Source: Pycnopodia helianthoides (taxonomy: Eukaryota; Echinodermata; Asteroidea; Forcipulatida; Asteriidae). Taken from it: 64,000 bases of DNA. Below the pieces are notes generated by a model. It saw nothing but the letters and a program-made list of their open reading frames with translations. It was not told the origin of the DNA and made no database searches. This document shows positions 19,901-58,661 of this stretch, piece after piece; within the stretch, counting starts at the first letter, position 1, and each line of letters starts with the position of its first letter. The stretch covers positions 1 through 64,000 of the forward strand of contig JASTWB010000032.1 of NCBI GenBank assembly GCA_032158295.1. Direction: 5' to 3'. The translations under genes were made by a program, and so were the position numbers.

Positions 19901-22065
19901 ATGCAGCGCCACTAAACCTAATTCGTTCGAACGGATTACTTAACCGCCGTGACTAGCTTGCTCCAGTCATCAGCATGACTAGATCAAGCTAGTCGAAACG
20001 TTGAGACCAACAAGAACTCACTCCACAGCAGTGCAGTTAATTACTAGAAGTCCCCCCCGATCCACAAAGCTAAAGTAGTAGTCCATGCCGATTTCCTACC
20101 TCCCGCCCAGGTAGCAGTAGTTAATAAGCAGGACAGTTCTTTTCAGAACTGAGAAGTCTCCCGAATTCCGAAAATCTACTCCGCGGTAGTAAAACAAATA
20201 GCAAGACAAGTTCTCTAAAGAACAAAATCTACGCAGCAAAGTATATATTTTTTTACACATGGTGTTACCGCAAACCGAATATAAACTGGCAGATCGTTCC
20301 ACATTTTGGCCCCAGAAAAAGCAAAGCTTGAGCACAAGCTTTCTTTCTTGGCCATAGGAACTCTCAGAGTAAGGTTGTCATTGTGTCTAGTGGAACAGCT
20401 GTTTGTGAAGTGAATGAATAGTTTTGCCATGTACTCCGGGCAAAGATGATGTATGCATTTATACACTAGAATAATTTTTTTCAAACGAATTCTCTCGGCA
20501 AAAAGATAACAAGTTCAATTCATTAAACATATCAGTTGAGAAAGTTCGGTAGGGGCAACCAAGGATTAATCTGGCAGCTCTTTTCAACAGTTTGTTCAGC
20601 AGGTTAATATGTGCGCTGTATCGGCCTCCCCAAACCGTACAACAATAGTCCAAACTCGGTAATACAACAGTTTTAACCAAAGTGTGCAGACTGCTTTTTG
20701 GAATGTTGTGGTGAATTCTACTTAACATGGCTTATTTAGAAGAAACTTTATTTTTAATGTAATCAATATGAGGAGACCATGTGAGTGATTCATCAATTAT
20801 AACACCTAAACACTTGAAAGAGGTAACCTGTTCAAATGGATCGTTATTAATGGCAATGTTAAGGTCAGTTGAAGCTACCTTGTGTTTAGAGCCGATGATC
20901 ATTGACTTAGTTTTGGCAGCATTGATTATCAACCTATTTTTGGCGGCCCAATCGTTAATATTTACCATGGCTGTATTGAGGATACGTTCGATTTCCTCTC
21001 GGTTGGAGGAGCTACATATTATTGTTGAGTCGTCTGCGTACATGTGCAACTGGCAGTGTTTTTTTTTTAAATATCTGATCGGTTTCTAATCGGTCTTTTT
21101 TGTTCATAGTAATGAATTCAAAGCAGTGACGCTGTCCTCGATGATACACATTGGGCAGTGACTTACACCGTTTTCGAGATAAATACAAGTTTAATGTTAA
21201 TTTGTTGGGCTTAATTAAATGTAGGGACATAGATTGTCAATGTAGTGCAGTTTTATAAGCAATTGAAAAGAATGATACAATAAAAGTAAAATGTGAACGT
21301 TTCAGCTGGACACTTTACTATAATTGCTTCTCTCCACCCAGGGGTAAATGGGTACCTGTGAGGGCAGAGATGGTTCTTGTGATTGATTTAGCTTAGTGCG
21401 CTACATAATTTGGCAGCACAGGCTGTATACTCCCCACGGAGCTGAGATGGTTTAAGGAATGAAATGGCCCAGTGATCAGGGTAATAATGTTGGAAGCGCT
21501 TTGAGACATGGTGTATAAAGCACTATATAAAAACCGAATATTATTATTATTATTATTATCTATGACCCTACCTTTAACAAGAGAAAAAATAAGTTTCATA
21601 CTCAAAGAAGTCATAAGACAATTCATTAAATCCATTTGTTTCCAAGTTGTTTCGAAAGTATTTTGTTGTCATTGAAAATTAAACTAAGAATAGTATTTCA
21701 ACGCTACAATTTGCTTCATAAAAAAAAAATAATAATAATAAAATCACTAATTAAAAAGGTTTTGTTTTTCTTGCGCGTCCTTTACAATTAAAGTATCTTT
21801 CTTTGTTGCAGGTGACTCGCTGAGCTACCACAATAACCATCAGTTTAGTACTAAAGACAGAGACAACGATGCATCGGTCGGGAACTGTGCCCAGAGACGC
21901 CGCGGCGCCTGGTGGTACAGGAGCTGCAGCTGGTCTAATCTTAACGGGTTGTATCTCAATGGGACCACGACTGAACCTTTGCAGGGAGTTTATTGGTATT
22001 GCTGGAAGAGGGAATATTACTCACTCAAAACCACCGAGATGAAAATACGACCCACTCCACAATAA
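13381..22065 (+). CDS. FReD-B: secreted coiled-coil fibrinogen-related protein (407 aa, 4 exons)
   Basis: Predicted exons are 13,381-13,966, 15,033-15,154, 19,575-19,836 and 21,812-22,065 (1,224 nt with stop, in frame throughout; intron phases 1, 0, 1). The protein has a signal peptide (about 1-20), a CC pair for likely disulphide oligomers, a coiled coil of 25-residue repeats (about 45-190) and a complete fibrinogen C-terminal domain (196-407). The domain has the first Cys pair (DCADI, YCDM), the calcium loop DRDND (339-343), the second pair (NCAQ, RSC) and SNLNG. Such lectins bind acetylated or other microbial sugars outside the cell; ligand and immune role are inferred. The ATG is chosen for its signal peptide and conservation in D. 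Confidence 0.85.
14295..14372 (+). pseudogene. Vestigial extra copy of fibrinogen exon 2 (FReD-B intron 1)
   Basis: The frame reads [19 protein letters not shown] (with G supplied by splicing), homologous to the start of exon 2. It then loses the [15 protein letters not shown] part and any donor. Upstream sequence (TGAAATCATAATCTCTTCTA) is homologous to that before the real exon 2, so exon plus acceptor was duplicated. Confidence 0.75.
14440..14945. mobile_element. G-tract-ended MITE-like insertion, FReD-B copy
   Basis: It lies between the two exon-2 copies. One end has CAGCGGCGGCGCCAGACC followed by runs of 10 or more G with GCAAA spacers. The other end has the mirrored C runs with TTTGC-type spacers. 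It is palindromic in outline and non-coding. The same insertion sits at the same place in FReD-C (32,180-32,690), so it predates their duplication. Confidence 0.6.
15033..15154 (+). CDS. FReD-B exon 2: start of fibrinogen domain
   Basis: It encodes (D)[15 protein letters not shown], then the [12 protein letters not shown] landmark, ending before GTAAGA. The acceptor is the AAAG at 15,029-15,032, which joins in frame to exon 1. A second AG at 15,018-15,019 would give phase 0 and would need an unseen intermediate exon. Confidence 0.75.
15240..15545 (+). repeat. Degenerate short tandem motifs in intron 2 (FReD-B)
   Basis: The motif CTCCGG followed by about 20 nt and TAATCCACGAAATC recurs about every 60 nt (15,272, 15,380, 15,432, 15,485). 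It recurs in FReD-C (33,008-33,245), and similar phrases appear again at 16,295-16,380. Non-coding. Confidence 0.5.
15860..16222 (+). pseudogene. THAP-type zinc-finger exon, frameshifted
   Basis: ATG begins [15 protein letters not shown]. Then, in a shifted frame, come [20 protein letters not shown] and LTRAEW, followed by a degraded middle. In another frame there is SCFESGMY then [17 protein letters not shown]. The order C-x4-C, FP, W, then CFE and a basic stretch with AIPNIF is that of a THAP domain (a C2CH DNA-binding zinc finger found in P-element transposases and host factors). At least two frame changes break it. A GGGTAAGT donor-like site follows. It is absent from FReD-C and D introns, so it is a private insertion. 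Confidence 0.6.
16388..17991. mobile_element. Solo LTR, 1,604 bp, with 5-bp target duplication
   Basis: The element starts TGTCACAG and ends TTGTGACA, giving TG..CA ends with a 7-bp inverted repeat. It is flanked on both sides by ATCAT (16,383-16,387 and 17,992-17,996), as expected for LTR retrotransposon integration. No gag or pol lies inside, so it is a solo LTR left by recombination. Its short ORF at 16,615 is also in the FReD-C copy but has no family resemblance. Strand is not determined. Confidence 0.7.
18365..18665 (-). mobile_element. DIRS-type retroelement fragment, RT C-terminal part (FReD-B intron 2)
   Basis: The stretch is nearly identical to 53,890-54,185, whose minus-strand translation aligns with the region after the RT palm in the DIRS element at 33,337-37,620 (the PGRAFL landmark). 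Here the frame is broken. GGACAGACAG repeats mark its left side. Confidence 0.55.
18666..19160 (-). mobile_element. DIRS-related leader fragment (FReD-B intron 2)
   Basis: Matches 40,150-40,590 and 55,090-55,480, including CCACAACGCAGTCGCCGTGG and CCAAGGGGGATTGCACAGGA. In the other genes it adjoins a gag-like fragment on the minus strand; here the gag part is mostly deleted. Confidence 0.45.
19306..19425. repeat. Palindromic 21-bp repeat array, about 4 units, plus CCGCATA hairpin (FReD-B)
   Basis: Units resemble TTCGTTTTAACGGATTACTA. The ideal core AATTCGTTATAACGAATT is its own reverse complement. It is followed by CCGCATA and TATGCGG arms at about 19,399-19,423. The array lies about 150-270 nt upstream of exon 3. 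It has about 8 units in FReD-C and 12 in FReD-D. Confidence 0.75.
19575..19836 (+). CDS. FReD-B exon 3: middle of fibrinogen domain
   Basis: It encodes [20 protein letters not shown] through [12 protein letters not shown] to the [11 protein letters not shown] end, between ACAG and GTAATA. The landmark QRRxDGSVDF is typical of invertebrate FReDs. It differs from C and D at few positions (for example FLGN-D-I against N, AAF against AAY). Confidence 0.9.
19920..19945. repeat. Single palindromic unit downstream of exon 3 (FReD-B)
   Basis: ATTCGTTCGAACGGATTACT is one unit of the array family, here on the other side of exon 3. The same single unit stands at 41,367 (C) and 56,317 (D). Confidence 0.6.
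19946..20245 (-). mobile_element. Penelope-like repeat with hammerhead-like ends (FReD-B intron 3)
   Basis: On the minus strand it reads from a TACTACCGCGGAGTAGATTT block through TTAACTACTACCTGGGCGGG and GTTGAGACC-type sequence to CTAGTCGAAACG-type stems. The family recurs at 25,660, 46,917 and 61,690. At 19,950-20,000 two stem-loop halves face each other. The insertion cuts the LINE that follows. The Penelope assignment rests on the GAAAC/stem motif and is tentative. Confidence 0.5.
20246..21060 (-). mobile_element. LINE fragment, reverse transcriptase C-terminal part (FReD-B intron 3)
   Basis: Minus strand: [47 protein letters not shown], then after a frame break [14 protein letters not shown]. 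These are the YADD active-site box and thumb/C-terminal landmarks of CR1/jockey-like LINEs. It is 5' truncated and several frames are broken. It sits in the same place as the FReD-C LINE, so it was inserted before duplication. The C-terminus is cut by the Penelope-like repeat. Confidence 0.75.
21061..21811. other. Remainder of FReD-B intron 3
   Basis: Shared with 42,660-43,405 (C) and, from the ATT microsatellite (21,539-21,560) on, with 58,131-58,407 (D). No gene seen. It ends with a TTTCTTTGTTGCAG acceptor. Confidence 0.6.
21812..22065 (+). CDS. FReD-B exon 4: calcium and ligand-binding end of fibrinogen domain
   Basis: It encodes [36 protein letters not shown] and the closing [12 protein letters not shown], then TAA. 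Residues around the loop and after NGTTTE differ from C and D, while the frame between them is almost base-identical. FReD-B has SVG after DNDA where C and D have WG. Confidence 0.9.
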
Positions 22066-23179
22066 TAACACCATACCACTCACTATGTTGCCGCTCATTA
22101 AGTAAAGTCATACCAGTACCAATCCTCGAGATAATTACCTTCCACTTGAATTTATTTATAAGTCGGGAAAATAGCCTCGAACCCACCATAGATTATTTTG
22201 ATCGCCGTTTTTGTAATAAAGTGTTTATAATCCTTGACCATTGTAGGTGGTTTTTCTATTCCTGCACTGAAACATGATAAACTCAAGTGATGAAATGTTC
22301 TCATGTTGATTGAACAGAACTATTGTTAAGAAGAGTATTAAATTAAACTTAAAAAAAAAAATATATAGTTTTGAAATATAAGAAGCCTTAAATATTTAAC
22401 ATCTTCCGTATAGAAAGTACATATCAACCAGACACTATGTGAGATCATCATGTGGATATTTTTCGATCCGTGTAGAAGAACTATTTACAGTTTCTTCGAA
22501 CAGGAATTATTGTTTTTTATTTAACATGAATAATAATTTTTCGAGCGATAAAAGACAGAATATACCGGATATGTGTACACTTATTACAATTGTAAAAAAC
22601 CTCAGGCCATTTACGTGCCTTGAATGTTTAAAAAGGTCATTTGGGCTGGTGAGCAGTTCGCAGCAGCCCTGTTTTTATCATGTGTTCCATTTCTGTTGCA
22701 GTATCTCTTGGTGATCCTCCTTAGCTACATTGTAATTTGCTTTTGTTTTAACTGATTACTTGTTGTTACTTCTGCTTCTTTGTTGTACTGTGTATATAAT
22801 TATACAGACGATAATTGTCAGACGATAATTGACTTTGGCTTGTGCCAGATCCAGGTTTGTAAATTCTAATACGTGCAAATTGAAAGTAACAACCAAAAAA
22901 GAAATGCACGAACAGACAGCTTGCTGAAATTTTATTCAATATTTAGGTCAACTCGGATGCAAGAAAAGCTACCAAACTTGTTTGCTTCAGGCGATGCAAT
23001 AAGCTGGCTTAGTATCAATCAGTTCAGACAACAATGAGAGTATGCACAGTTATACCACGGCGATTATTCGATAACATGTTCTCCCATCCCTCTTATCGAT
23101 ACAAAATATCATGTTTTCGGTAATAATTATACAAGATTGTATGTTTTCCCCTTTCGAGCTGTCTACAAATTTACTTTAA
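22066..23179 (+). other. FReD-B 3' UTR and downstream flank
   Basis: Colinear with 1-1,640 without the tandem duplication. It is interrupted at 23,176 by a TTAA-targeted insertion. No conserved ORF. Confidence 0.7.
22215..22220 (+). terminator. Polyadenylation signal AATAAA, FReD-B
   Basis: Conserved position 150 nt after the stop codon; identical context TTGTAATAAAG in D. Confidence 0.65.
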
Positions 23180-23635
23180 CCCTGCGCCGCCAATACAGTG
23201 TCGTCAGAAGACACTCTTTTTTCGTTTTTTTTTTTTTAATAAAACCCACAATTTTGTGGCAAATACTGTGAAACTCCAGTTATGCCCCTTTCAAACCATG
23301 CCAAAAACATGGTTTAGTCATATTTTATCCTGGGTGAACGCACTTGCGACACCAGCCTTGAAAAAAGGGCAGCCTTAGTCATCGCCCCATTAGTTTATAC
23401 TGTTAACCACATTTCTTTGTGCCTGAGCCACCAGCCACTGAGGGGTAGGGGTGGGATGGGGTGGGGGGATCTCCTGTTGGGAGGAAGTCAAGATGACCGC
23501 CATTTATGTATTTAGACTCTTGAACAAAGGATTGTATACAGGGTTGGAGTGTACATTACATAAACCCACCTGCTTCTCCTAGCGACACTGGTGCGACCAC
23601 GGTGTAAGTTTGGGTCGGTTATTGGAAGCGCAGGG
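23180..23635. mobile_element. piggyBac-type non-autonomous element, TTAA target
   Basis: It starts CCCTGCGCCGCCAATA and ends TATTGGAAGCGCAGGG, an inverted pair with two mismatches. It is bordered by TTAA at 23,176-23,179 and 23,636-23,639. TTAA targets and CCC ends are features of piggyBac elements. There is no transposase in its 456 bp. Confidence 0.6.
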
Positions 23636-23636
23636 T

Positions 23637-23805: not shown

Positions 23806-23809
23806 GAAA

Positions 23810-23824
23810 AAAAATTTGGGTTTT

Positions 23825-23855
<31 letters not shown>

Positions 23856-23889: not shown

Positions 23890-23892
23890 TTT

Positions 23893-24327: not shown

Positions 24328-24357
24328 TGCCTCCCACTGTAGGGAGCCCTCAAGTAT

Positions 24358-25340: not shown

Positions 25341-25374
<34 letters not shown>

Positions 25375-31701: not shown

Positions 31702-34700
31702 GTAGGTTTATTTTTTTTGAAATCTAAGTCAAACTTGCCCGAACACGAGCATATTATGAAGTACATTTGAAATTGAAATAGTTCAAGCAAGACTGTGGAA
31801 GATTAATAATTCACTGTAGAATCTCTTCCACAGCAATCATTAATATATCATCTTAATAATTATAATGTATGGTGCCGTTTTAATTCATAAAAACATACAA
31901 CATAACTTTTTGAAAGAGGGTGGACGTAAGATGCGCTTTTCTTAATTGAAGTATCACAATAATCTTCCAAGTGTCTTTGTTTCATAATGAAATCATGATC
32001 TCTTCTACATAAAAAGGAGGTTTATTGGTTCAGTGCCAACCTAAAGATTTTTCCGACATTCACGCAAGGGGTGTGACACGCAGTGGTGTGTACTCGATCA
32101 AATCGGTGACTGAGCCACTTAATAAACAAAAGTTCTTAACATATCAGTAAGGTTCACATCATATTTCATATACACCAGCCCCCACCCCCCCAGCGGCGGC
32201 GCCAGACCGGGGGGGGGGGCAAAGGGGGGAACTTAAATTTAGGGGGTGGGGCAAACAAAAACAAAAATCTATAATGTACTATACAAGCCTACAATTCACT
32301 CCAGAAATAAGGTTTTGCACTGTGTGAATGTGACGTATTGCGCGAACTGCGTGTACAATGGCTGCTTGCGGTTTTGGGCAGACTATGCATTTCTATTTAT
32401 AGCAAGTTTCCAAGCTTGTACAGATAAATACATCCACATTTTATTAACACTGCTGGAGATGGAAAGTGTATTGGGCTTTTTTGATGGTGCCAGCTAATTA
32501 TGATGGATGAAATTGAGTTTATTATTTACAGCGCAAGCAACATTGTAACAAATTGGGTGCAATGGTTTGGGATTAAACTCAATTTCCGCCATCGGTGACA
32601 AACTAGGGTGGGGGGGGGAGTGGCAAACAAAAATACGTGGGGGAATTTGCCACCCTTGCCACTCCCCACACCCCCACCTTGAGTGCTTAGTGCGATACAG
32701 TCTTTGTTTCATAATGAAATCATAATCTCTTTTACATAAACAGAATATGTACTGGTCCAGTGGATGCCTAAAGATTGTTCCGACATTCTCGCAAAGGGTG
32801 TAGGGAAGAGTGGTGTGTACGCGATCAAACCAGTGGACTCCGGTGAGCCATTCAGAGTGTACTGTGATATGGAGACAGACGGCGGAGGCTGGACGGTAAG
32901 ATAAAACATTATTGCCACATTGCCACTAAAATGAGGCTCTTCGTTTGTACTGAGCAGCCTTTTAGTCCAATTTAGTAAGCAAACAATTGCATGGTCTTAA
33001 AACTGATCTCCGGTCGTTAATAATCCACGAGAAGATGGAAATTGTTGCCACAACTACTTAGCCAAACTGATCTCTAAAACTGAAAGCAACTCGTAGCAAA
33101 TATGATACTCCGGGAGTAATCCAATTCGCGAAATTGTAGTCTCACAAAAACAGCACTTATCTCCGGCACTAGAATTTAATCCACGGAATCTTAATCCTTT
33201 AGAAACTTGAATTCCGGTAGTAATAGAATCCACGAAATCATAATTCATTTACAAGTGCAGCAGTGATTTCCAGCGAGAGACGTTTAAGGCACCTGTAAAT
33301 AGTTTTGTTAAAATTGTTTTAAACAATGAAGTATCAAACCACTGGGCCGAACTGCTAAAATATGCAGAGACCATCCGTACTGCATCCTTTCAGTTTCCGG
33401 GATGGGGTTGGAAAGCTTATGATGAGCAGTTCCGCTTGCGTCAAGAAGCTAACCCATCACGTTCTTGGGGTGTTGTTGATCCTGAGTTGTGGCTTACTGT
33501 TGCTGCGGCTGCGGTAAGTCATTCCTCCTTTGCCACTCGGGCAGCACAGCCCCAGGGGCCCCAAGGCGTAAAGCAAGGGCACTGCTTTGCATTTAACAGT
33601 GTCAAAGGTTGCCACTTTAAGTCATTTCGCTTTAAGCACAGGTGCGACAAATGCTTGCGTGAGGGCCATGGGGGACATGTTTGCCGTGGTAACACTCAAC
33701 GTTTTGACAACAGAAACATGTCCCGCCAAGTAGCTGTTGGGGCTAAGGCAGTTAAGGATGTGAAGTCACCATCCATGAAATAGCAATTTGTGCCACCTAC
33801 CCCTATCAAAGTCGAGGTGTTGGTGGCAATGCTTAAAGAGTATCCTAATGCTACTGCGGCAGGTTCACTTCAACATGGGTTTACTTATGGGTTTTCACTT
33901 GACTATAATGGCCCTCGCATTAGCCGGTTTTCTGATTGTCTGAAATCAGCCAAAGCACTTCCAAATATTGTTATGGACAAAATTTCCAAAGAGAGGAGTT
34001 TGGGTAGAATTGAGGGCCCTTTTGGCACACCCCCATTTGCTAACCTCCAATGTTCACCTATTGGACTGGTGCCTAAACATGGGCCTAATTCCTATCGTAT
34101 GATTCACCACCTTTCATTCCCTGCTGGAGAATCTGTTAACGATTTCATTAATCGGGATGACTGTATTGTGCATTATGCATCCTTTGATGAGTCAGTTAAC
34201 ATTGTGCGTAACATGGGACTTGGTGCATGGTTGGCAAAGTCTGATATAAAGTCAGCTTTCAGGCTCCTCCCTGTTGCAACATCTGACTATGAACTACTGG
34301 GTTTACCTTTCAAGGGAAATTTTAGTATGACAAATGTTTGCCCGTGGGATGTTCAATTTCTTGTGCACTATTTGAAAAGTTCAGTACATTTCTGGAATTC
34401 CAAATTCGGAAAATTACAGGTTCTTCTGCCATTACCCACTATTTTGATGATTTTTTCTTTGCTCATGAATCACATGAGGGTTGTAAAGTCATCATGGAGG
34501 AGTTTTTCCAAATGTGTGGGTCACTAGGTGTTCCTCTTGCCATAGAGAAAACAGTTGGCCCACAACAAGCATTGACTTATCTAGGCTTGGAAACCGACTT
34601 ACAAATGATGCAGGTGCGTGTGCCTCTTGATAAAGTCATTGCACTCAAAGGTAAGCTCCAGAGGGTACTTGCTAAGCACAAAGTTACACTAGTAGAAGTT

Positions 34701-37274: not shown

Positions 37275-37306
<32 letters not shown>

Positions 37307-40300: not shown

Positions 40301-43300
40301 AAGTGTAAACACGCACAAAGACAAATACGACAATGGAAAAGCAGCAAATTAACATAAATCAAAGACATACTTGAGAACGACAGAAAACAAAGGAGGGAGT
40401 AAATTTATTGAACTGATTTTTCTAGCAGTTAAGCACGAGAACAAGTTAACACGAAGACTGCTCAAACACCTGATCCAACCAAGGGGGATTACACAGGACA
40501 GTCAAGCAATTATCGAGCAACCATGTAGCAATTTTTGGCTTCATGATCCGACCAACCCCGCCAGACTGTCTAGTGGCAATGGATAATTTGAAGCTCAAAT
40601 TTGCCTCACATCGATTATTTACGAAAGACCAATCGTGCCACTGAAGTATATATTATCAGCGGGAACTAATTCGTTATAATGAATTAAAAATTCGTTATAG
40701 CGAATTGGTAATTCGTTACAATGAAATAACTATTCGTTTTTACGATTTAGTAATCTGTTATTTCGAACTACTAATCCGTTATAACGAATTACTAATTCGT
40801 TATAACGGATTACTAATTCGTAATCACGAATCTTTTGTTCCGCATAAAATATATATGCGGGAATCAGTTCCTGCATATAATATTTAGGCCTACTTCAGTG
40901 GCACGATTGGGCTTTCGTAATTATTTGATCATAGTAGAGGTGAAAGGAGCGCTCACTTTTGTGATGGTATGAAGAGTTAATGTGAAGACAAAGCCAATCA
41001 AGTTTACGTGTTTCTTGACAGGTATTCCAGCGGCGCAAGGACGGCAGTGTTGATTTCTTTTTGGACTTTGCCAGCTACAGCCGGGGCTTTGGGAATCTAG
41101 AGGGAGAGTTTTGGCTCGGGAACGACAACTTGCACCGTCTGACCGCTCAGGGCGACTACGAACTCAGAGTCGAGCTGTCAGACTTTGAAAACGAATCCAG
41201 GTATGCCGCCTATGACTCGTTTAGCATCGCTGATGTGAGTGACAACTACAGGCTGACGGTGGGAAGTTACTCAGGAACCGCAGGTAATAAATGTAGCCAT
41301 CCGCAATCTTGCAGCAAAGTATTGTTGTGAGTGGATCGTTTTAAGGCATACAGCGCTACTAAACCTAATTCGTTCGAACGGATTACTTAACCTTGCGACC
41401 GAATTGGCTTTCCATAGTTTTTACTTTTACTGTCCCTTCCCGGTCTCCGTACCTTTATTTATTTATTTTTTTATTTATTTCCTTTATTTACCCAGGGTGA
41501 GCCAAATCAGTAAAAAATAACTGGTTTTCATTTGGGCCCTGCATAATTACATTGTTAAGAACAAACAAACTAACATAATAAAAAGACATAAGCACATTAT
41601 AAAACTAACGATATAAAAATTATAAATTTAGCGTAAATATGTATGGATAAGGTAAACTGTAACAATAACATGATTTTTTTTTTTTTTTTGAAGAGCAGCT
41701 TTCAAAACAATAGAGAAGGGTCCCTACATACACATTCAGGAATTTAAATAAAAATGTGATTTGAATGAATGTACAATTAATGTATAAAAGGCGGGAAAAC
41801 TGCCAAGAAGCACAAATAAAACAAAACTCACAATGTGTACAGAGTATAAATTAAGCGATTAGGAATTGAAAAAGCTCAGTTTTAAAAACAGACAAAGACT
41901 CAATTTTTCCCAGACTAACTGGCAGATCGATCCACATTTTGGCCCCAGAAAAAGCAAAGCTTGAGCACAAGCTTTCTTTCTTGGCCATAGGAACTCTCAG
42001 AGTTAGGTTGTCATTGTGTCTAGTGGAACAGCTGTTTGTGAAGTGAGTGAATAGTTTTGCCATGTACTCTGGGCAAAGATGATGTATGCATTTATACACT
42101 AGAATATTTTTTCAAACGAATTTTCTCGGCAAAAGATAACCAGTTCAATTCATGAAAGTTATCACTTGAGGAAGTTCGGCAGGCGGCTCTTTTCAACAGT
42201 CTGTTCAGCAGGTTACTATGTGCGTTGTATTGGCCTCCCCAAACCGTACAACAATAGTCCAAACTCGGTAATACACAAGGTTTAACCAAAGTGTGCAGAC
42301 TCCTTTTTGGAATGTTGTGGCGAATTCTACTTAACATGGCTAATTTAGAAGAAACTTTATTTTTAATGTAATCAATATGAGGAGACCATGTGAGTGATTC
42401 ATCAATTATAACACCTAAACACTTGAAAGAGGTAACCTGTTCAAATGGATCGTTATTAATGACAATGTTAAGGTCAGTTGAAGCTACCTTGTTTTTAGAG
42501 CCGATGATCATTGACTTAGTTTTGGCAGCATTGATTATCAACCTATTTTTGGCGGCCCAATCGTAAATATTTACCATGGCTGTATTGAGGCTACGTTCGA
42601 TTTCCTCTCGGTTGGAGGAGCTACATATTATTGTTGAGTCGTCTGCGTACATGTGCAACTGGCAGTTTTTTTTAATATCTAATCGGTTTCTAATCGGTCT
42701 TTTTTGTTCATAGTAATGAATTCAAAGCAGTGACGCTGTCCTCGATGATACACATTGGGCAGTGACTTACACTGTTTTCGAGATAAATACAAGTTTAATG
42801 TTAATTTGTTGGGCTTAAATGTAGGGACATAGATGTTTAATGTAGTGCAGCTTTATAAACAATTGTAAAGAATGATGCAATAAAAGTATGTGAACGTTTC
42901 AGCTGGACACTTTACTATAATTGCTTCCCTCCACCCAGGGGTAAATGGGTACCTGTGAGGGCAGAGATGGTTCTTGTGATTGATTTAGCTTAGTGCGCTA
43001 CATATTTGGCAGCACAGGCTGTATACTCCCCAGGGAGCTGAGATGGTTTAAGGAATGAAATGGCCCAGTGATCAGGGTAATAATGTTGGAAGCGCTTTGA
43101 GAGATGGTGTATAAAGCACTATATAAAAACCGAATATTATTATTATTATTATCTATGACCCTACCTTTAACAAGAGAAAAAATAAGTTTCATACTCAAAG
43201 AAGTCATAAGACAATTCATTAAATCCATTTGTTTCCAAGTTGTTTCGAAAGTATTTTGTTGTCGTTGAAAATTAAACTAAGAATAGTATTTCAACACTAC

Positions 43301-43656
43301 AATTTGCTTCATAAAAAAAATAATAAAAATAATAAAATCACAAATTAAAAAGGTTTTGTTTTTTTTGCGCGTCCTTTAAAATTAAAGTATCTTTCTTTGT
43401 TGCAGGTGACTCGCTGAGCTACGACAATAACGATCAGTTCACTACTAAAGACAGAGACAACGATGCATGGGGTGGGAACTGTGCCCAGTACCACCAGGGC
43501 GCCTGGTGGTACAGGAGATGCGGCCCTTCTAATCTTAACGGGTTGTATCTCAATGGGACCACGACTGAATATTGGGGAGTTGTTTGGCATCGCTGGAAGG
43601 GGTGGTATTACTCACTCAAAACCACCGAGATGAAAATACGACCCACTCCACAATAA
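31203..43656 (+). CDS. FReD-C: secreted coiled-coil fibrinogen-related protein (377 aa, 4 exons)
   Basis: Predicted exons are 31,203-31,701, 32,774-32,895, 41,022-41,283 and 43,406-43,656 (1,134 nt, in frame; phases 1, 0, 1). The signal peptide [13 protein letters not shown] is followed by a cysteine-rich N-terminus (CVC, PPVCAR, SGCNSS) not seen in B or D. Then come a short coiled coil with about two repeats and a full fibrinogen domain (167-377) with DRDND at 310-314. One codon is missing after TEYW relative to B and D. Intron 2 is about 8 kb and holds a DIRS-type element. It is likely a secreted oligomeric lectin. Expression through so long an intron is plausible but unproven. Confidence 0.83.
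32047..32120 (+). pseudogene. Vestigial extra copy of fibrinogen exon 2 (FReD-C intron 1)
   Basis: Counterpart of 14,295-14,372. Its first cysteine codon is now TTT ([10 protein letters not shown]), and it lacks the second half and a donor. Decay has gone further than in FReD-B. Confidence 0.7.
32180..32695. mobile_element. G-tract-ended MITE-like insertion, FReD-C copy
   Basis: Orthologous in position to 14,440-14,945, with shorter G and C runs. The core reading TGACGTATTGCGCGAACTGC and onward is nearly identical. Confidence 0.6.
32774..32895 (+). CDS. FReD-C exon 2: start of fibrinogen domain
   Basis: It encodes (D)[18 protein letters not shown] through [12 protein letters not shown] to GTAAGA. 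It uses the same AAAG acceptor type as FReD-B. Confidence 0.75.
32896..33336. other. FReD-C intron 2, shared start
   Basis: Colinear with 15,155-15,605 of FReD-B, including the CTCCGG...TAATCCACG degenerate repeats. Identity ends at GAAGTAT, where the DIRS-type element begins. Confidence 0.65.
33337..33783 (+). pseudogene. DIRS-type element: gag C-terminal part
   Basis: An open frame reading [20 protein letters not shown], then [18 protein letters not shown] and DPELWL. It is followed by a Cys/His knuckle ([28 protein letters not shown]). These are landmarks of DIRS/Ngaro-type gag ends. The 5' part is missing at the intron junction. Confidence 0.65.
33784..35155 (+). pseudogene. DIRS-type element: reverse transcriptase and RNase H, frameshifted
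   Basis: The first frame has [20 protein letters not shown] and [14 protein letters not shown]. After a one-base shift near 34,335 the second frame has [14 protein letters not shown], the catalytic YFDD box, LTYLGLETD and PGRAFLRRL. RNase H follows with [15 protein letters not shown] and [10 protein letters not shown]. The order RT then RNase H without protease or a DDE integrase marks DIRS-type elements. The reading frame is further cut at 35,156 by a solo LTR. Confidence 0.75.
35161..36417. mobile_element. Solo LTR, 1,257 bp, nested in the DIRS-type element
   Basis: It starts TGTCACAG and ends CTGTGACA (8-bp inverted ends, TG..CA), with GTCAC duplicated at 35,156-35,160 and 36,418-36,422. 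Removing it with one GTCAC rejoins the host element's RNase H frame. It contains TATATAAATA near 35,492 and no coding gene. A G-run lies at 35,354-35,367. Confidence 0.8.
36423..36585 (+). pseudogene. DIRS-type element: RNase H end, continuation after the solo LTR
   Basis: The frame carries [20 protein letters not shown] then SLSRFQ, the usual end of DIRS RNase H. One TGA stop interrupts the line upstream of it (near 36,448). Confidence 0.7.
36586..37131 (+). pseudogene. DIRS-type element: tyrosine recombinase N-terminal and central part
   Basis: An open frame with [40 protein letters not shown] and [18 protein letters not shown]. This is the SAM-like N-terminal fold and the start of the catalytic domain of tyrosine recombinases. 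The frame closes early (NG then stop), and the later R..Y part is lost into an A-rich microsatellite. Confidence 0.7.
37203..37326. repeat. A-rich microsatellite (AAATA/AATAA)n
   Basis: A C run followed by A15 and about 100 nt of AAATAAATA repeats. It interrupts the recombinase to hydrolase section of the element and may be the tail of a retroposed insertion. Confidence 0.8.
37371..37616 (+). pseudogene. DIRS-type element: SGNH-hydrolase-like C-terminus
   Basis: The frame ends [20 protein letters not shown] then [10 protein letters not shown] and a stop. The DGVHLS...G...LL block is the last (catalytic Asp-His) motif of SGNH hydrolases, which some DIRS/Ngaro-type elements encode. The other catalytic blocks are missing here. 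Confidence 0.5.
37620..37978. other. 3' region of the DIRS-type element or neighbouring unique sequence
   Basis: No ORF and no repeat partner in the window. It lies between the hydrolase stop and a hairpin minisatellite, so it is probably element 3' UTR. Confidence 0.35.
37982..38223. repeat. Minisatellite of TGGAC-CTGGGA-GTCCA hairpins, 10 units
   Basis: Ten cores like GGACCTGGGAGTCCATTGG are spaced 16-35 nt apart. Each can fold as a TGGAC/GTCCA stem with a 6-nt loop. Variants include GGGCGTCC and CTCGGCGTCC. Found only here, directly 3' of the DIRS-type coding region. Confidence 0.8.
38270..38316 (+). ncRNA. Hammerhead-like stem motif, degenerate
   Basis: TTAATGATGCCAG, a spacer, then CTGGCGAAACATG. 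A GCCAG/CTGGC stem is followed by GAAAC and preceded by a near CTGATGA box with two mismatches and one extra base. Compare the motifs at 19,950 and 62,176. Catalytic activity is doubtful. Confidence 0.3.
38385..39587. mobile_element. Truncated copy of the 16,388 solo-LTR family (FReD-C intron 2)
   Basis: Matches 16,455-17,858, including AAATTGCTAGTGCGAGTTGC and a repeated ATTATTGA-rich section. Both ends are missing, and the right side joins DIRS-related sequence at GCCTAAGC. A 67-codon ORF here is shared with the B copy but unlike any family. Confidence 0.65.
39588..40201 (-). pseudogene. DIRS-type gag N-terminal part, minus strand (FReD-C intron 2)
   Basis: Minus strand: [20 protein letters not shown], then after a frame change [20 protein letters not shown] and [10 protein letters not shown]. 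The L-W-D-E-L-G...I-W-K-G-E-(F/Y)...pattern is seen in DIRS/Ngaro gag. It is in opposite orientation to the element at 33,337. Related pieces lie at 54,840-55,140 and, deleted, in FReD-B. Confidence 0.5.
40202..40620 (-). mobile_element. DIRS-related leader fragment (FReD-C intron 2)
   Basis: Adjoins the gag fragment and matches 18,770-19,150 and 55,140-55,480. Probably the 5' non-coding part of the same element. Short ORFs on both strands look incidental. Confidence 0.45.
40664..40862. repeat. Palindromic 21-bp repeat array, about 8 units, plus CCGCATA hairpin (FReD-C)
   Basis: Contains the full self-complementary core TTCGTTATAACGAATTACTA twice in succession, and diverged units on the left. 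Followed by CCGCATA...TATGCGG. Same location before exon 3 as in B and D. Confidence 0.75.
41022..41283 (+). CDS. FReD-C exon 3: middle of fibrinogen domain
   Basis: [20 protein letters not shown] through [12 protein letters not shown] to SYSGTAG. It has K and F where B and D have Q and Y. Flanking GACAG and GTAATA are conserved. Confidence 0.9.
41448..42665 (-). mobile_element. LINE, 5'-truncated, reverse transcriptase C-terminal half (FReD-C intron 3)
   Basis: The minus strand is open for 188 codons from [19 protein letters not shown], with [18 protein letters not shown] and [13 protein letters not shown]. After a frame break come [14 protein letters not shown] and [14 protein letters not shown]. 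The 3' end has an (AAATA)-type tail. This is a CR1/jockey-like LINE. It lacks the endonuclease and N-terminal RT blocks. It occupies the same site as in FReD-B, and the site is empty of LINE in FReD-D. Confidence 0.8.
42666..43405. other. Remainder of FReD-C intron 3
   Basis: Colinear with 21,061-21,811. Contains an ATT microsatellite (43,135-43,151) and ends TTTCTTTGTTGCAG. No gene seen. Confidence 0.6.
43406..43656 (+). CDS. FReD-C exon 4: calcium and ligand-binding end of fibrinogen domain
   Basis: [40 protein letters not shown], then [16 protein letters not shown] and the constant close. It is three bases shorter than B and D (one codon lost after W). The histidines before the calcium loop are aspartates here. 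Confidence 0.9.
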
Positions 43657-45958: not shown

Positions 45959-45959
45959 T

Positions 45960-52300: not shown

Positions 52301-55300
52301 TGTTGCAAATAATTAAAAAAAACAGTAGGTTAATTTAACATGAATAGACAAATCAGCCAGTAATGTTTCATAATGGTTTACGGTTTTTCGGAAAAGGAAA
52401 AAGCTCTGATTCAGGCATAATCTTCAGAACTTTTACTTGGTTTTCCTACTTTCACAGCCTGGCCTTTGTCTTGCATGGACCTCTTTAAACATGTTCCTCT
52501 GCTGCTGCGAAGGGCCTCTTTGAATTAGGATGTTTTTGTGCATTTTCCCTGTTTTGGGAAAAAGTCAAATTTGGAGGCAGTGTTTTTACAGCAGGAAACA
52601 ATTGACCAAGTTTTTCTCCCCAGTTATGAAAAGACCAATGTTGGCCCTAATCACAACCGAAAGGTCAATTTCTGAGACCACTGGCAAATTTATATTTTGA
52701 GGGCCAAAAATAGGGTAAAAATTTAGATTTTGCAAGATCTAAAAACATGCTTTAATGCATGATGCAAAAATAGCATTATGGTGAAATTTATAGCAATAAG
52801 TTTTTTCTCAAGTAAAGCCAATGATGACACTTTGTAGGGATTTAAAAAGGTTTTATGAAATAAATTTGCATTTTGGTAGGGTATATATGGATTTGAAAAG
52901 TCGATTTTGTTTACTTGTATCCCAAGTCCCTTCCACCCACAAAGTATTTTTTTTTTTAATGTGTTTGTTTTACCGTGGACACACTATGTCAAGTATTTAC
53001 GTGAAATAACACTTTAGGCTTTATCAATGTAAATACCTCTGTTAGGTATAGATTGGGATGAAGAATGCTGGTTAACGTCAATCCCTATGTCGAGGGTTCA
53101 TATCCCACAGTTATTAGATACTTAGAGAAAATGATACGTGTAGTTCTGATGATGAGCTCTGGAGTAATTCATGTTAATTATTTTTCTGTTGGAATAACGT
53201 TGCACTGGATTAAGAGAAAATAAATGTTACCAAATAATAAAGTAATTGCAGATATACGGTAATAATTGCTTTTGTTTTCGTTTTTTCCCTTTTTTCTACT
53301 AACTTGATTTAAATATACCTTCCCCATGAACCGGACTTGTACAGCTGAAGCAACGGAGAGAGCCGCAACGACGGAAGCTGGTAAGGGTATTGTGGCTTAT
53401 TACTGTTATATAAGTGTGTTGTAGCTTGGGATGGAGAATGCTGGTTAATGTCAACCCTGAGGTCGCGGGTTCATATCCCGCAGTTATTACTAGATACGTA
53501 GGGGAAATGATACTTGTAAATCCGATAATGAACTCTGGAGTAATACATGTGCAATGTTTACCTGTTGGAATTATATTGCCTTTGCAGATACGGGGATAAC
53601 AAGCCACGTTTCGTTTTATACATATTTGTACAGTTCCAATGGATTGTTCAGTGATTCTTGCAGGGGGTGTATCGAGGAGTGGCGTGTACACGGTTCAACC
53701 TCTAGACTCCGGTGAGGCTTTCAAGGTGTATTGTGATATGGAGACAGACGGTGGTGGATGGACGGTAAGATAACACGCTTGTGAATCAATGAGAGTGCTT
53801 ATCGCTAAGAATGAATTTGTAAATAGAAGGAGTTTTATCAAGTTTAAATAGACTTGGGTATTAACAAAGGGGGCATTCTTGTTAATGGCTGCCTTACGGA
53901 CAGACAGACAAAACGTAAACAGGAACAAGAACGTACGGACAGACAGGTTGAACAAAGACAGAGATGATGAACTAGAAATACACACTATTTTTTAAATATA
54001 AACATCAAAAATTAAAGTGTGACAAAAATGTTTGCCAGGCAAGTAGATCAGCCCACGCCCCTGCTGTAAAACGGATGAATTGGTGTGGCTTAGACACACT
54101 GCGTGTCGTACCAAGCAAGCGCTTCAGAAAAGCACGACCTGGCCGTACTGCGCTACACACACAATTCAAACTCACTGGATGAAGCCGTGACAGGTACGGG
54201 ACATTTGGTTTGACTGCCGTTGTCCCACGCCCCCACTGCGGTCGTCCTGCCGAAAGGAGGATTCCGTAGGGTAGAACAAAATGTGGCTGCACCAACCAAA
54301 GTGAATCACAACTCAGCGTCACTGCAGCCCAAAGAGTGGGATGGCATACGAGCTTGCCTCAATCTGAAATTAGTATCGTGAAAGCCAGTACGCTGGTAGG
54401 CAGCTGAACGAATATTATTAGCATAGTAATTTCAGCAAATGGCGCGCTTGCGCTGAATGGCCCTGCAGACAAATGGAGGCAAAACAATTAAAAGAACTCG
54501 CCTTTCGAAATCGTCTCGTGCATTGAAAGAGGTACTTCATCCCCAAGCTCATCCCACACGCTAACCCTGCGATGTCATTAATTATTAATTAGTCTGTGGA
54601 TGCCCTACAGGAGAGCAGCGTGCAGTACGTTGGGAAAACGTGTATACCTCCTTTACAATGTTAATTTCATACCTTTTTTCAAAGCTAATAACCTTTCGAA
54701 ACGTTGAAGAGAAAGTTTGGTATAAAGAAGAAAAACAATTATCATATATATTTTTGTTCGAAAATTATTATGTTTTTACACTTAAAATGAACAACTAATT
54801 AAGGTAAATGTGTTTTCGGTCTATAGGTTGCAGACCTGTAGGCCATTGGAGGGTTAATCAGTGTGGACTGAGCAAACTCGCCAGTTGTCGCGCTTCCTTC
54901 GTTGATAGCCGGGCTGAACAAATTAAAACCGAAATTAAACTCACAGATTCCGGAGGTGACAAGCGCATCGGATGAAAGCGCAGCATTCCCTTGCTGACTC
55001 GATGCAGGGCCCCCGTCGATGGGCGGCAAACCGATTACTTGAACGGTTGAATCCACATTGACAGCAGGAATAGTGGATGAGACTGCTGCTACCGAAGCAG
55101 CCACAACGCAGTCGCCGTGGTGGCCGGAGCCAGATCGCACGGATTGTCCACTCTTCTAACGCTACGGCCTACCAACCACCGCAGTCGACATAGAGGCTGC
55201 TGATGGGAGCGCATTGAGCGAGGCAAGATGTAAGAAAAGAAGTGTGAACACGCACAGAGACAAATACGACAATGGAAAAGCAGCAAATTAACATAAATCA

Positions 55301-58300
55301 AAGACATACTTGAGAACGACAGAAAACAAAGGAGGGAGTAAATTTGTTGAACTGATTTTTCTAGCAGTTAAGCATGAGAACAAGTTAACACGAAGACTGC
55401 TCAAACACCTGATCCAACCAAGGGGGATTGCACAGGACAGTCAAGCAATTATCGAGCAACCATGTAGCAATTTTGGGCTCCATGGCCGGAAGGACGATCG
55501 GGCCCGGCCGCACAGTCACACCATGGATATGGGCCAATTGTTAATTCGTTATAACGAAGGATTAAATCGTTTTAACGGATTACTAATTCGTTTTAACGGA
55601 TTACTAATTCGTTTTAATGGATTATTAATTCGTTTTAATGGATTAATAATTCGTTTTATTGGAATACTTATTCGTAATAACGAGATCATAGTTTGTTGAA
55701 ACGAACGAAACAATCGTTATTACGAATTATTAATCCGTTATAACGATTCGTTTTAACGGATTACCTATTCGTAATAACGAATCTTTTGTTCCGCATATAA
55801 TATATATGCGGGAATCAGTTCCGCATATAATATATAGGCCTACTTTAGCGGCACGATTGGGCTTTCGTAATTATTTGATCATAGTAGAAGTGAAAGGAGC
55901 GCTCACTTTTGTGATGGTATGAAGAGTTAATGTGAAGACAAAGCCAATTAAGTTTACGTGTTTCTTGACAGGTATTCCAGCGGCGCCAGGACGGCAGTGT
56001 TGATTTCTATTTGGACTTTGCCAACTACAGCCGGGGCTTTGGGAATCTAAAGGGACAGTTTTGGCTCGGGAACGACAACTTGCACCGTCTGACCGCTCAG
56101 GGCGACTACGAACTCAGAGTCGAGCTGTCAGACTTTGAAACCGAATCCAGGTATGCCGCCTATGACTCATTTAGCATCGCTGATGTGAGTGACAACTACA
56201 GGCTGACGGTGGGAAGTTACTCAGGAACCGCAGGTAATAAATGTAGCCATCCGCAATCTTGTAGCAAAGTGTTGTTGTGAGTGGATCGTTTTAAGGCATG
56301 CAGCGCTACTAAACCTAATTCGTTCGAACGGATTACTTAACCGTGCGACCGAATTGGCTTTCCATATTTTTTTACTTTCACTGTTCCTTCCCGGGCTCCG
56401 TACATTTATATATATATATATATATTTGAGGTGTTCGTGCAGCAGCGCGAACAACTCTTTGTTGAGGTGTTCGTGCAGCAGCGCGAACAACTCATTGATT
56501 TTGTTCGTGTTTTTTTTTTTTTTTTTTTTTTTTTTTTTGAGGTGTTCGTGCAGTAGCGCGAACAACTCATTGATTTTGTTCGTTTTTTTTTTGTTGTTTT
56601 TTTAGGTGTTCGTGCAGCAGCGCGAACAACTCATTGTTTTTGTTCGTTTTTTTTTTTTTTTTTTTTAGTTTTTCTTCTTCTTCTCAGAGTCGTTTGTCCA
56701 CAAAAAAATAGCATAGTTGCGAGGCCAATATTAACTTGAAACTTTACATGTACGTAGATTGCAACTAGCAGATGATACATAAGTTGTGGCGTCATGATGA
56801 CGTCATCGGGTGTCAAATTACAAGCAAATTTAAGTTCAAAAAGTGACGTTAGGCCAATGCCTGTATGTCTCTGAATATTATAGCCACAGTATTCATATTT
56901 GGGCATATGATAGATCTAGACATGGGCAATCTTTAAAAAGTTAACCCCAAAATCGTATGACCTTTACTTCCGGGTCGTTACCCTGGGTCGAAGTTTGCCT
57001 TTGGGTTTTTTTCTTGAAAAACATCACTTTCGGGCTTATTTACGGCATAACTCAAGATTGAAATTGAATTGAACATTGAAACTCATCAGACATTTGAACC
57101 TCAATATCAAGACGACACAAACTTGATGATGTCATGATGACGTCATCAGGTTTTGAATTACAATAAATCAAAGTTTAATATTTGTAAAAAATCATAGCTC
57201 GCGAACCGCATGTTGGATTTTTTACAATCGACACATCATCGGACAGATCGTTGAAAGTTTAACAAACCTTACACAAAGCTTGACCCCATTAGATCTTTAC
57301 TTCCGGTTCAAATCGGAAGTTGAAAATTTCAATAATTCGTATCTCAAAAACTACCATTTATTTTAGTTTATTTTTTGTATCAAGGTGTGGAACGTTAAGC
57401 CTGCTCAAACTTTTGCACTCAGATGACAATTTTTTGACCTTTACATGAGGTCGAAAAAGGCGCACGTTTAAGTTGACCCACAGTGACAACGCACGATAGT
57501 GAAACTGAAAGAACACAGGTAGACATACGAACGTGCGCCTACAGATCGCATGCATTGAAGGCTATGCGTACTGTGGCGTGTTCTGCTCGACTGATCACAG
57601 GGGGGGGGGGGGGGCAAAGTCCATTTGGCATAGGTTATGCATAGAGCAAGGCTGTATGGGCTGTTAGTCTAATCCAAGTGTGAGCATTTTTGTCAGATAA
57701 CAAAAGACACACTTCCAAAGATCACACAACCTTCAAACTTCGCACATAGTTAGCTCTTCAATTGTAGAAGACACCGCTTACTTGACGTCATAATGACGTA
57801 ATCAGGTGTTCAATTAAATTTAAAAAAAAAATAATATATTTGAAAAATTAATAACTTATGAACCGTGCATCGGAATTTTACAATCTATACATCATCGGAG
57901 AGGTCTTCGAAAAATAAACAAACGCTAAACAGAGTGTGGACTCAATTGACGTTGTCTTTTGGTTGAAAGCGGAAGTTAAGTGGTAACCTTAGCACTTATT
58001 TCCTGTGTAACAAATGTACTTTCCGTGAAAATTCAAAAGCTATCAACAATCTTTTCATCTATTTAATTAAACACTGAACCAATTGATAGCCGAACACCTC
58101 GGTGTTTGTTCGTACAAACACTAAATTCTAGTTATTATTATTATTATCTATGACCCTACCTTTAACAAGAGAAAAATAAGTTTCATATTCAAAGAAGTCA
58201 TAAGTTGCGAAGACAATTCATTAAATCCATTTGTTTCCAAGTTGTTTCGAAAGTATTTTGTTGTCGTTGAAAATTAAACTAAGAATAGTATTTCAACACT

Positions 58301-58661
58301 ACAATTTGCTTCATAAAAAAAATAATAAAAATAATAAAATCACTAATTAAAAAGGTTTTGTTTTTCTTGCGCGTCCTTTACAATTAAAGTATCTTTCTTT
58401 GTCGCAGGTGACTCGCTGAGCATACACAATAACCATCAGTTCACTACTAAAGACAGAGACAACGATGCATGGGGCTTGAACTGTGCCCAGACACTCCACG
58501 GCGCCTGGTGGTACTTGAGCTGCGGCTGGTCTAATCTTAACGGGGAGTATCTCAATGGGACCACGACTGAATTTTGGCAGGGAGTTTATTGGTATCACTG
58601 GAAGGGGGCTTATTACTCACTCAAAACCACCGAGATGAAAATACGACCCACTCCACAATAA
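48646..58661 (+). CDS. FReD-D: secreted long-coiled-coil fibrinogen-related protein (456 aa, 4 exons)
   Basis: Predicted exons are 48,646-49,369, 53,634-53,764, 55,972-56,233 and 58,408-58,661 (1,371 nt, in frame; phases 1, 0, 1). A further 36-bp exon at 53,345-53,380 would fit in frame. The protein has signal peptide [14 protein letters not shown], a VCC pair, six 25-residue coiled-coil repeats plus partial ones (about 45-241) and a full fibrinogen domain (245-456) with DRDND at 388-392. The longer stalk implies a longer oligomeric stem than B or C. Exon 2 is the most diverged of the three genes, and intron 1 is unrelated to B and C, so the 5' half has a separate history. Confidence 0.85.
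49775..53005. mobile_element. 3.2-kb segment with long diverged inverted ends (FReD-D intron 1)
   Basis: The left 49,775-50,165 and right 52,665-53,005 are reverse complements at moderate identity. Both hold TTCACGTAAATA at the tip, TGGCTTTACTTGAGAAAA and TACCCTATTTTTGGCCCTCA. A further inverted pair, TTGTGATTAGGGCCAA, lies at 51,740 and 52,645. No transposase is recognised in between, and no clear target duplication. Absent from B and C. Confidence 0.55.
53040..53275 (+). repeat. tRNA-like repeat, copy 1 (FReD-D intron 1)
   Basis: ATTGGGATGAAGAATGCTGG, then GAGGGTTCATATCCCACA (a B-box-like GGTTCATATCC), then a tail GATGAGCTCTGGAGTAATTC. Paired with 53,405-53,620. Confidence 0.5.
53345..53380 (+). 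CDS. Candidate 36-bp mini-exon of FReD-D
   Basis: Between ACTTGTACAG and GTAAGG the frame (entering in phase 1) reads [12 protein letters not shown] with no stop and leaves in phase 1. It could be spliced between exons 1 and 2 without a frame change. The acceptor region resembles that of exon 2 (both TTGTACAG), as if duplicated. A related, donor-less piece is at about 49,718-49,750. Use in mRNA is unproven. Confidence 0.35.
53405..53620 (+). repeat. tRNA-like repeat, copy 2 (FReD-D intron 1)
   Basis: GCTTGGGATGGAGAATGCTG, then GTCGCGGGTTCATATCCCGC with a perfect 5-bp T-arm stem (GCGGG/CCCGC). An acceptor arm is not evident, so it is SINE-like rather than a tRNA gene. It ends at the exon 2 acceptor. 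Confidence 0.5.
53634..53764 (+). CDS. FReD-D exon 2: start of fibrinogen domain
   Basis: After TTTGTACAG it reads (V)[38 protein letters not shown] then GGGWT, before GTAAGA. It starts three codons further upstream than B and C, using a true CAG acceptor. Confidence 0.85.
53880..54190 (-). pseudogene. DIRS-type RT C-terminal fragment (FReD-D intron 2)
   Basis: Minus-strand frame [20 protein letters not shown] then [20 protein letters not shown], parallel to [14 protein letters not shown]...[10 protein letters not shown] in the FReD-C intron element. A short relict on the opposite strand to the host gene. The plus-side ACGGACAGACAG repeats border it. Confidence 0.65.
54191..54560 (-). mobile_element. 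DIRS-related non-coding fragment (FReD-D intron 2)
   Basis: Matches 18,690-18,740 and 39,590-39,910, including GCCAGTACGCTGGTAGGCAG-type sequence. Frames are broken. Confidence 0.45.
54565..54853. mobile_element. piggyBac-type MITE, 289 bp, with empty site in FReD-C
   Basis: It starts CCCTGCGATG and ends CATTGGAGGG (short imperfect inverted ends). It is bordered by CTAA (54,561-54,564) and TTAA (54,854-54,857). The matching place in FReD-C reads CACACGTTAAGCAGTGG without the insert (about 39,910), so the insertion postdates the duplication. Confidence 0.7.
54858..55500 (-). pseudogene. DIRS-type gag N-terminal fragment and leader (FReD-D intron 2)
   Basis: The minus-strand frame contains [20 protein letters not shown] as in 39,914-40,201. 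The leader part on its 5' side is near-identical to 40,240-40,530. Broken by the MITE and frameshifts. Confidence 0.5.
55541..55820. repeat. Palindromic 21-bp repeat array, about 12 units, plus CCGCATA hairpin (FReD-D)
   Basis: The longest of the three arrays. The middle units (AATTCGTTTTAACGGATTAC) are homogeneous, the right ones rearranged or inverted. Followed by two CCGCATATAATATAT arms. About 150-430 nt before exon 3. Confidence 0.75.
55972..56233 (+). CDS. FReD-D exon 3: middle of fibrinogen domain
   Basis: [38 protein letters not shown], to SYSGTAG. Charge changes relative to B and C: E to K and E to Q in the GNLEGEF segment. Confidence 0.9.
56430..56665. repeat. Four hairpin units with T tracts (FReD-D intron 3)
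   Basis: GAGGTGTTCGTGCAGCAGCG followed by CGAACAACT occurs at about 56,428, 56,464, 56,539 and 56,604. Each folds as an 8-bp GTTCGTGC/GCGCGAAC stem with an AGCA loop. Units are separated by T runs up to 26 nt. Not in B or C. Confidence 0.75.
56690..58130. repeat. Diverged repeats with TGACGTCA-type palindromes (FReD-D intron 3)
   Basis: Three related units have ATGATGACGTCATC (about 56,792 and 57,132) or GACGTCATAATGACG (57,783). Each is followed by a CAATTAC/AATTAAA stretch, and units 2-3 by ATCATCGGA and ACTTCCGG-type phrases. Also a G run at 57,601-57,613. No protein recognised. Replaces the LINE-bearing section found in B and C. Confidence 0.5.
58408..58661 (+). CDS. FReD-D exon 4: calcium and ligand-binding end of fibrinogen domain
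   Basis: [59 protein letters not shown] and the constant close with TAA. It differs from B and C mainly by amino-acid-changing substitutions. Confidence 0.9.

Follow-up and report, generated by a model that had tools for sequence, protein, structure and literature searches.

Hypervariable ligand-pocket codons in a putative fibrinogen-domain lectin array of the sea star Pycnopodia helianthoides

Among described systems, the FREPs of the snail Biomphalaria stand close to the genes considered here. FREPs join fibrinogen and immunoglobulin superfamily (IgSF) domains, and their variants arise from gene conversion and point mutation; in the portion of the source consulted, the diversification discussed is that of the IgSF domains, and the variants come from cells of a single snail (PMC7588048). 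Among echinoderms, the SpTransformer (Sp185/333) genes of the sea urchin form an immune array in which the second exon is mosaic, according to the accessible part of PMC8634487, and a 2026 review, in the section available, presents echinoderm diversity as germline-encoded (PMC13428168). For the fibrinogen domain itself, the excerpts of two crystal papers on FIBCD1 give the residues of the ligand site (PMC10825690, PMC3908420). The subject of the present work is an array of fibrinogen-related domain (FReD) genes in the sea star Pycnopodia helianthoides. Three of its members, copies B, C and D, lie in the window, i.e., the first 64 kb of the 160-kb unplaced contig JASTWB010000032.1 (C32) of the 479-Mb assembly GCA_032158295.1. 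Below, C numbers denote contigs and L numbers denote loci or copies.

The array is, in our judgment, probably a birth-and-death family of FReD lectins, the ligand pocket of which is under strong diversifying selection and is shuffled among copies by short-tract gene conversion. The evidence for selection is given first; exchange between copies and the alternatives are weighed afterwards.

Replacement changes and the ligand pocket

The last exon of the fibrinogen domain, exon 4, is present in the genome in at least 47 copies, i.e., 40 copies plus 7 more from a second search. Each search scored the best 40 of 77 candidates, and so the copy counts are lower bounds. The copies sit on C10, C14, C15, C22, C9 and unplaced contigs, with five on C32. 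The exon body is unframeshifted in 41 of the 47, including L017, which has a one-base deletion near the exon end; the other six are frameshifted. The codon table comprises the 26 intact copies out of 30 (L023, L026, L028 and L036 are omitted). A set of 40 copies omits these four plus L079, L085 and L090; L079 is mis-cut at its start, with its frame open. Statistics on the middle exon, exon 3, are from the 21 genes having both exons.

In the 26 intact copies, the ratio of replacement to silent differences per site (pN/pS) in exon 4 is 1.77 (codon bootstrap 95% interval 1.19–2.61, with 0.22% of resamples not exceeding 1). Thus, silent and replacement rates are unequal when copies are compared genome-wide, as the original prediction, which rested on copies B, C and D, had anticipated. 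The neighbouring middle exon has a pN/pS of 0.41. In the same 21 genes, pS is 0.081 and pN 0.145 for the last exon, and pS is 0.079 and pN 0.033 for the middle exon. That is, middle-exon pN is 4 times lower at about equal pS. The proposal that silent sites of exon 4 are held fixed must therefore be dropped, as silent changes are just as frequent in the neighbouring exon and the replacement rate is the extreme one. The codon counts from which that proposal came were about 22 codons differing in amino acid plus one codon deletion, and about two silent codons. The three-way comparison of B, C and D returns the former, with 22 variable, 59 identical and 1 gapped columns. For the silent codons, one silent-only column is recovered, but the GGT/GGC difference is silent in the C–D comparison alone, since B has another amino acid there.

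Differences at the third codon position are informative about mutation rate. Third-base C/T differences are always silent, and they are found in 99 of 4664 pairs at hypervariable codons (2.1%) versus 192 of 9853 pairs at conserved codons (1.9%). Selection on replacements, not a high mutation rate, is the explanation supported for the pattern.

The variation is concentrated in 25 of 83 codon columns, which are termed hypervariable (pN above 0.2, a threshold set on the same data); 25 codons are invariant across the 26 intact copies. The pocket set was taken from the FIBCD1 crystal papers, with residues placed by counting from the conserved cysteine; ficolin-2 alignments show the same spacing. 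The five acetyl-pocket residues, Tyr405, His415, Tyr431, Ala432 and Trp443, all correspond to hypervariable columns (5/5, p = 0.0018), and in the order Tyr405, His415, Tyr431, Ala432, Trp/Tyr443, their variability ranks are 3, 4, 6, 11 and 13 of 83. A wider set adds Lys381, His382, His396, Glu398, Arg412 and Asn413. It has 10 of 11 positions hypervariable (p = 1.2e-5), the exception being His396. Lys381 and Glu398 are debatable members of the set; in FIBCD1, Lys381 does not contact the ligand, and it is the equivalent of a contact in tachylectin-5A (TL5A). When Lys381 is removed, 9 of 10 positions are hypervariable (p = 5e-5). The earlier placement of the changes at the calcium and ligand-pocket region thus agrees with the crystal-paper positions of pocket and rim.

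The pN of the pocket is 6.2 times the pS of the remaining exon codons (95% interval 3.95–10.14). By group, the ratio is 6.5 for the 20 young copies, 5.9 for the six older ones and 11.5 for the three window copies. Very strong diversifying selection had been suggested, and the roughly sixfold excess supports it.

A scaffold is kept around the varying codons, as follows. The calcium aspartates (FIBCD1 Asp393 and Asp395; columns 16 and 18) are D in 25 and 24 of the 26 copies, respectively, and the Cys401–Cys414 pair beside the pocket is present in 26/26 at both columns. Also kept are the WW motif and the core blocks and, outside exon 4, the exon before it and the adjacent non-coding DNA. Within several hypervariable codons, the third base is fixed and the first two bases have many states. 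At column 30, the Tyr405 equivalent, there are eight first-two-base states, and the third base is C in 26/26.

His415 is found in none of the 20 intact young copies (11 have G, 8 S and 1 D) and in 13 of 20 older intact copies. Tyr405 is mostly replaced in the same young copies. The canonical acetyl-pocket residues are not a feature of the family as a whole, the older copies retaining His415 in part. Because His415 is absent and Tyr405 mostly absent, the young copies probably have new specificities.

The same columns vary in other sea stars. Among the 120 relatives of copy D listed, the best named one is an Asterias rubens protein at 76% identity, and one nameless NCBI protein reaches 85%. Column variability is correlated with that of Asterias (seven proteins picked by motif, rho 0.62) and of Acanthaster (12 of the 15 proteins listed, rho 0.73). 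By eye, the pocket core, i.e., Tyr405, His415 and Tyr431–Ala432, seems better kept in most Acanthaster rows.

Gene copies in the window

Copies B, C and D each have a complete fibrinogen C-terminal domain in three exons, with spliced lengths of 211, 210 and 211 amino acids (splice sites are predicted from sequence alone). The last exons start at 21,812, 43,406 and 58,408 on the forward strand, each behind a CAG acceptor, and end with TAA at 22,065, 43,656 and 58,661. In a Pfam profile search, they score 85.5–93.9 bits for PF00147 against a curated cut-off of 22. The features are as follows.

1–686, forward: downstream flank of a further copy, A, the last exon of which would fall past the contig end (94% alignment to 22,091–22,773).
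15,035–15,154, forward: copy B, first fibrinogen-domain exon, from CADIL (tblastn plus splice donor GTAAGAT; predicted, 5′ boundary provisional).
19,575–19,836, forward: copy B, middle fibrinogen-domain exon, which serves as the conserved control.
21,812–22,065, forward: copy B, exon 4, the hypervariable last exon of the fibrinogen domain, stop included (PF00147, E = 1.6e-26).
21,898–21,900, forward: copy B, codon equivalent to FIBCD1 Tyr405 (column 30), here CGC, counted from the conserved Cys401.
21,919–21,924, forward: copy B, codons equivalent to FIBCD1 Arg412–Asn413 (columns 38–39).
21,928–21,930, forward: copy B, codon equivalent to FIBCD1 His415 (column 41).
21,976–21,981, forward: copy B, codons equivalent to FIBCD1 Tyr431–Ala432 (columns 57 and 60).
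22,012–22,014, forward: copy B, codon equivalent to FIBCD1 Trp443 (column 71).
32,776–32,895, forward: copy C, first fibrinogen-domain exon (predicted, 5′ boundary provisional).
41,022–41,283, forward: copy C, middle fibrinogen-domain exon.
43,406–43,656, forward: copy C, last fibrinogen-domain exon, hypervariable and shorter by one codon (PF00147, E = 5.9e-24).
53,645–53,764, forward: copy D, first fibrinogen-domain exon (predicted, 5′ boundary provisional).
55,972–56,233, forward: copy D, middle fibrinogen-domain exon.
58,408–58,661, forward: copy D, last fibrinogen-domain exon, hypervariable (PF00147, E = 2.8e-25).

Position 1 of the window aligns to position 22,091. That is, the contig starts 26 bases past the expected exon-4 stop of copy A, which indicates that the assembly broke at or near the hypervariable exon. 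The 3′ flank of copy A has a tandem duplication of about 529 bases (164–686 and 683–1191, 88.7% identity), both halves of which align to a single stretch in copy B. A reverse transcriptase fragment (PF00078, E = 3.4e-8) lies on the reverse strand at 20,801–21,055, in the intron ahead of copy B's last exon, and this stretch aligns with a homologous one in copy C. Long poly-G and poly-C runs are found at 14,860–14,940, shortly before the first fibrinogen-domain exon of copy B.

Outside the window, L052 (C41:58176-58448) is a middle-exon copy with no last exon among the 47 examined. It may be an orphan exon, or its exon 4 may lie outside the listing. There are at least 158 Fibrinogen_C matches genome-wide (the best 150 of 751 candidates scored), on C3, C7, C11, C15 and other contigs. 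Many lie in dense clusters, and some share one long open frame with neighbouring domains.

Exchange between copies and competing explanations

The contrast between exon 4 and its surroundings is sharpest in the young copies. Over about 10 kb, L011 (C78) and L028 (C47) differ by 35 substitutions, 23 of which are in the 253-base exon 4 and 12 in the other ~9.7 kb. The density excess inside the exon is thus about 70-fold, at a divergence of ~0.12% outside it, and the 250-base bins holding the middle exon have zero differences. Indel events number four in exon 4 and seven in the rest. Other close pairs show the excess to varying degrees: 14 exon-4 substitutions and 19 elsewhere for L025 (C41) versus L028, 25 and 26 for L011 versus L025, and 10 and 20, in a shorter stretch, for L019 versus L024 (C68 versus C47). 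Among the 22 closest copies, non-coding diversity (pi) is 0.03–0.10 within ~250 bases of the exon and 0.08–0.29 further out. In L071 (C47:36001-46000), with the L028 exon 4, the indels relative to L011 are clustered in one 250-base exon amid nearly identical 10 kb. Indels and frameshifts of the L028 type could come from a collapsed consensus, from old pseudogenes that served as donors, or from mutagenic repair.

Across 13 disjoint pairs, replacement differences exceed those of the flanks at p < 0.05 in nine, the closest ones. In six close pairs, 72 of 105 differing codons differ by one base and 33 by two or three, and these 33 come from pairs with flank differences of at most 5%.

Short tracts are common to otherwise diverged copies, the pattern expected of gene conversion. 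L011 and L012 are identical across locus bases 1621–1780, with flanks that are ~10% different. L019 and L024 are nearly identical to L011, L025 and L028 upstream, and divergence begins at exon 4; between L024 and L025, the 335 upstream bases are identical, and 32 of the 635 downstream bases differ. L017 can be covered by eight stretches taken from different copies. For the 20 young copies, the mean number of covering segments is 12.9, versus 15.1 with columns shuffled. The pairwise homoplasy index (PHI) with a window of 10 was equalled in 2/1000 permutations for 23 young copies and 0/1000 for 12 hand-chosen copies. The PHI signal is short-range and fits short tracts, and it is not uniform. A scan of upstream versus downstream divergence flagged 69 of 376 pairs; the 19 strongest were discarded, as all involve L014, the downstream region of which is probably non-homologous. 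Short-tract exchange between paralogs, with breakpoints in exon 4, is a process beyond those of the original prediction, the interpretation of which is, as a whole, partly supported.

We suggest the following sequence of events. Duplication would provide new copies in a young, expanding, ficolin-like FReD array. Short gene-conversion tracts would carry pocket codons between paralogs and homogenize the neutral DNA around the exon. Strong diversifying selection would retain copies having new pockets. The products, putative lectins with a presumed immune role, may bind differing glycans or other microbial surface ligands.

Several observations weigh against this proposal. Purifying selection, rather than conversion, could account for the low diversity beside the exon. 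The 11-position pocket set does not contain 15 of the 25 hypervariable codons, many of which adjoin it. PHI is not significant with a window of 25 (435/1000), nor in 24 older copies (165/1000). In the more variable patches, most states are private to one of 30 copies; for many patches, donors were not matched among the 30, with only partial gain when 47 copies were used. A per-pair Fisher test of replacement over silent differences reaches p < 0.05 in only 3 of the 13 disjoint pairs, a result ascribed to small counts and to multi-hit codons, which add silent steps. The excess over flanks does not reach p < 0.05 in the four most diverged of the 13. Finally, the 47 copies contain ten frameshifting indels, nine of which lie, by eye, in or beside hypervariable codons, though the numbers are small and placement is partly ambiguous.

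The nearly identical copies might instead be alleles (haplotigs) of one or a few loci under balancing selection, for which the peptide-binding sites of the major histocompatibility complex (MHC) are the model. L011 and L028, on different unplaced contigs and hardly diverged outside exon 4, would fit such a relationship. However, contigs carry several copies each, as C32 does, the young set has 23, and nearest neighbours differ upstream and downstream of the exon. This makes alleles an unlikely explanation, and one that overlaps with ours, since it would involve the same selection and exchange.

Point mutation with positive selection, in the absence of inter-copy exchange, would account for the pocket replacement excess, the many private patch states and the preponderance of one-base codon changes in the six close pairs. 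It is at odds with the 33 two- or three-base codon differences in pairs with such similar flanks, with the 3′ exon part that L011 and L012 have in common on different backgrounds, and with the way L019 and L024 match L011, L025 and L028 and then diverge from exon 4. It is regarded as improbable.

A programmed process, germline or somatic, might rewrite the pocket codons, e.g., by error-prone or templated conversion aimed at exon 4. The ~70-fold excess between L011 and L028, their four exon indel events against seven in the rest, the placement of frameshifting indels and the dip in non-coding diversity around the exon all favor it. Yet third-base C/T differences are not raised at hypervariable codons, and third positions are under-represented among the differences (33/148, p = 0.002). 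The frameshift counts are small, their placement is ambiguous in part, and assembly error may contribute to them. Diversity-generating retroelement-like mutagenesis makes substitutions at template adenines only. In the array, adenine makes up 27 of 75 bases of invariant codons, and 21 of the 50 first and second positions of hypervariable codons show all four bases, which is not the pattern of an adenine-specific mutator. The simple forms of the codon-targeting mechanism raised in the original prediction are thus not supported. Adenine-directed mutagenesis was judged unlikely on base content, and base-blind hypermutation on the third-base C/T rates. A targeted process retains a small chance because of the frameshifts in hypervariable patches and the L028 indels. 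The same small chance is given to its more far-reaching form, in which active, exon-targeted diversification of the lectin pocket, in the germline or in coelomocytes, would continually recombine and rewrite its codons and give individuals differing recognition repertoires without lymphocytes.

An assembly artefact, with collapsed or mis-joined copies yielding a false exon 4, is very improbable. Many copies are on unplaced contigs, C32 begins just past an exon-4 equivalent, and the L028 indel cluster fits such an artefact, which may affect single copies such as L028. However, pockets vary also inside the chromosome-size contigs C10, C14, C15, C22 and C9, most copies (41/47) are unframeshifted in the exon body, and errors would ignore codon position and pocket. 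Relaxed constraint on redundant copies, to which the six frameshifted copies and the near-end deletion of L017 might point, can practically be set aside, as relaxation cannot lift pN over pS, least of all about sixfold in the pocket, or leave 25 codons invariant in 26 intact copies.

Comparison with known systems

The array has the appearance of a set of recognition molecules that is diversifying rapidly. If the lectin repertoire is real, it would be a germline counterpart of the hypervariable loops of antibodies in an animal without lymphocytes. In such a repertoire, the crystal-defined pocket and its rim, with little else in the domain, would vary between nearly identical copies, which raises the question of what many slightly different pockets recognize. 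It also makes testable whether short-tract exchange alone can create pocket variety. FReD gene counts miss functional diversity of this kind, which resides here in ~25 codons.

Diversified immune gene arrays are known. In the open-licence literature, as judged by titles and the beginnings of abstracts, no account of pocket-hypervariable FReD arrays in sea stars was found, nor, on that basis, a description of the fibrinogen-domain pocket as the hypervariable unit at such a contrast with its flanks. Replacement-rich binding codons beside conserved non-coding DNA are familiar from the MHC peptide-binding sites and from the conotoxin and snake phospholipase A2 genes, which encode proteins different from the starfish lectins.

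The ficolins, TL5A and FIBCD1 have the same Pfam domain, and the best PDB matches of the array domain are among them (ficolin-2, E = 1.3e-69). Their calcium aspartates and Cys401–Cys414 pair are likewise kept in the array. In contrast, they conserve the pocket, as far as the excerpts consulted extend, whereas the starfish array varies it, the young copies being without His415. As a candidate calcium-dependent acetyl-binding lectin, the array would therefore have the calcium and cysteine features but not the acetyl pocket.

SpTransformer is also an echinoderm mosaic-exon array, but its protein is unrelated to the starfish lectins. The Biomphalaria FREPs are, like the array, an expanded invertebrate fibrinogen-domain family. 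Compared with the FREPs as presented in the consulted portion of their source, and on the fibrinogen-domain exons only, the starfish differs in that it is the fibrinogen pocket that varies, and that it varies between genomic copies.

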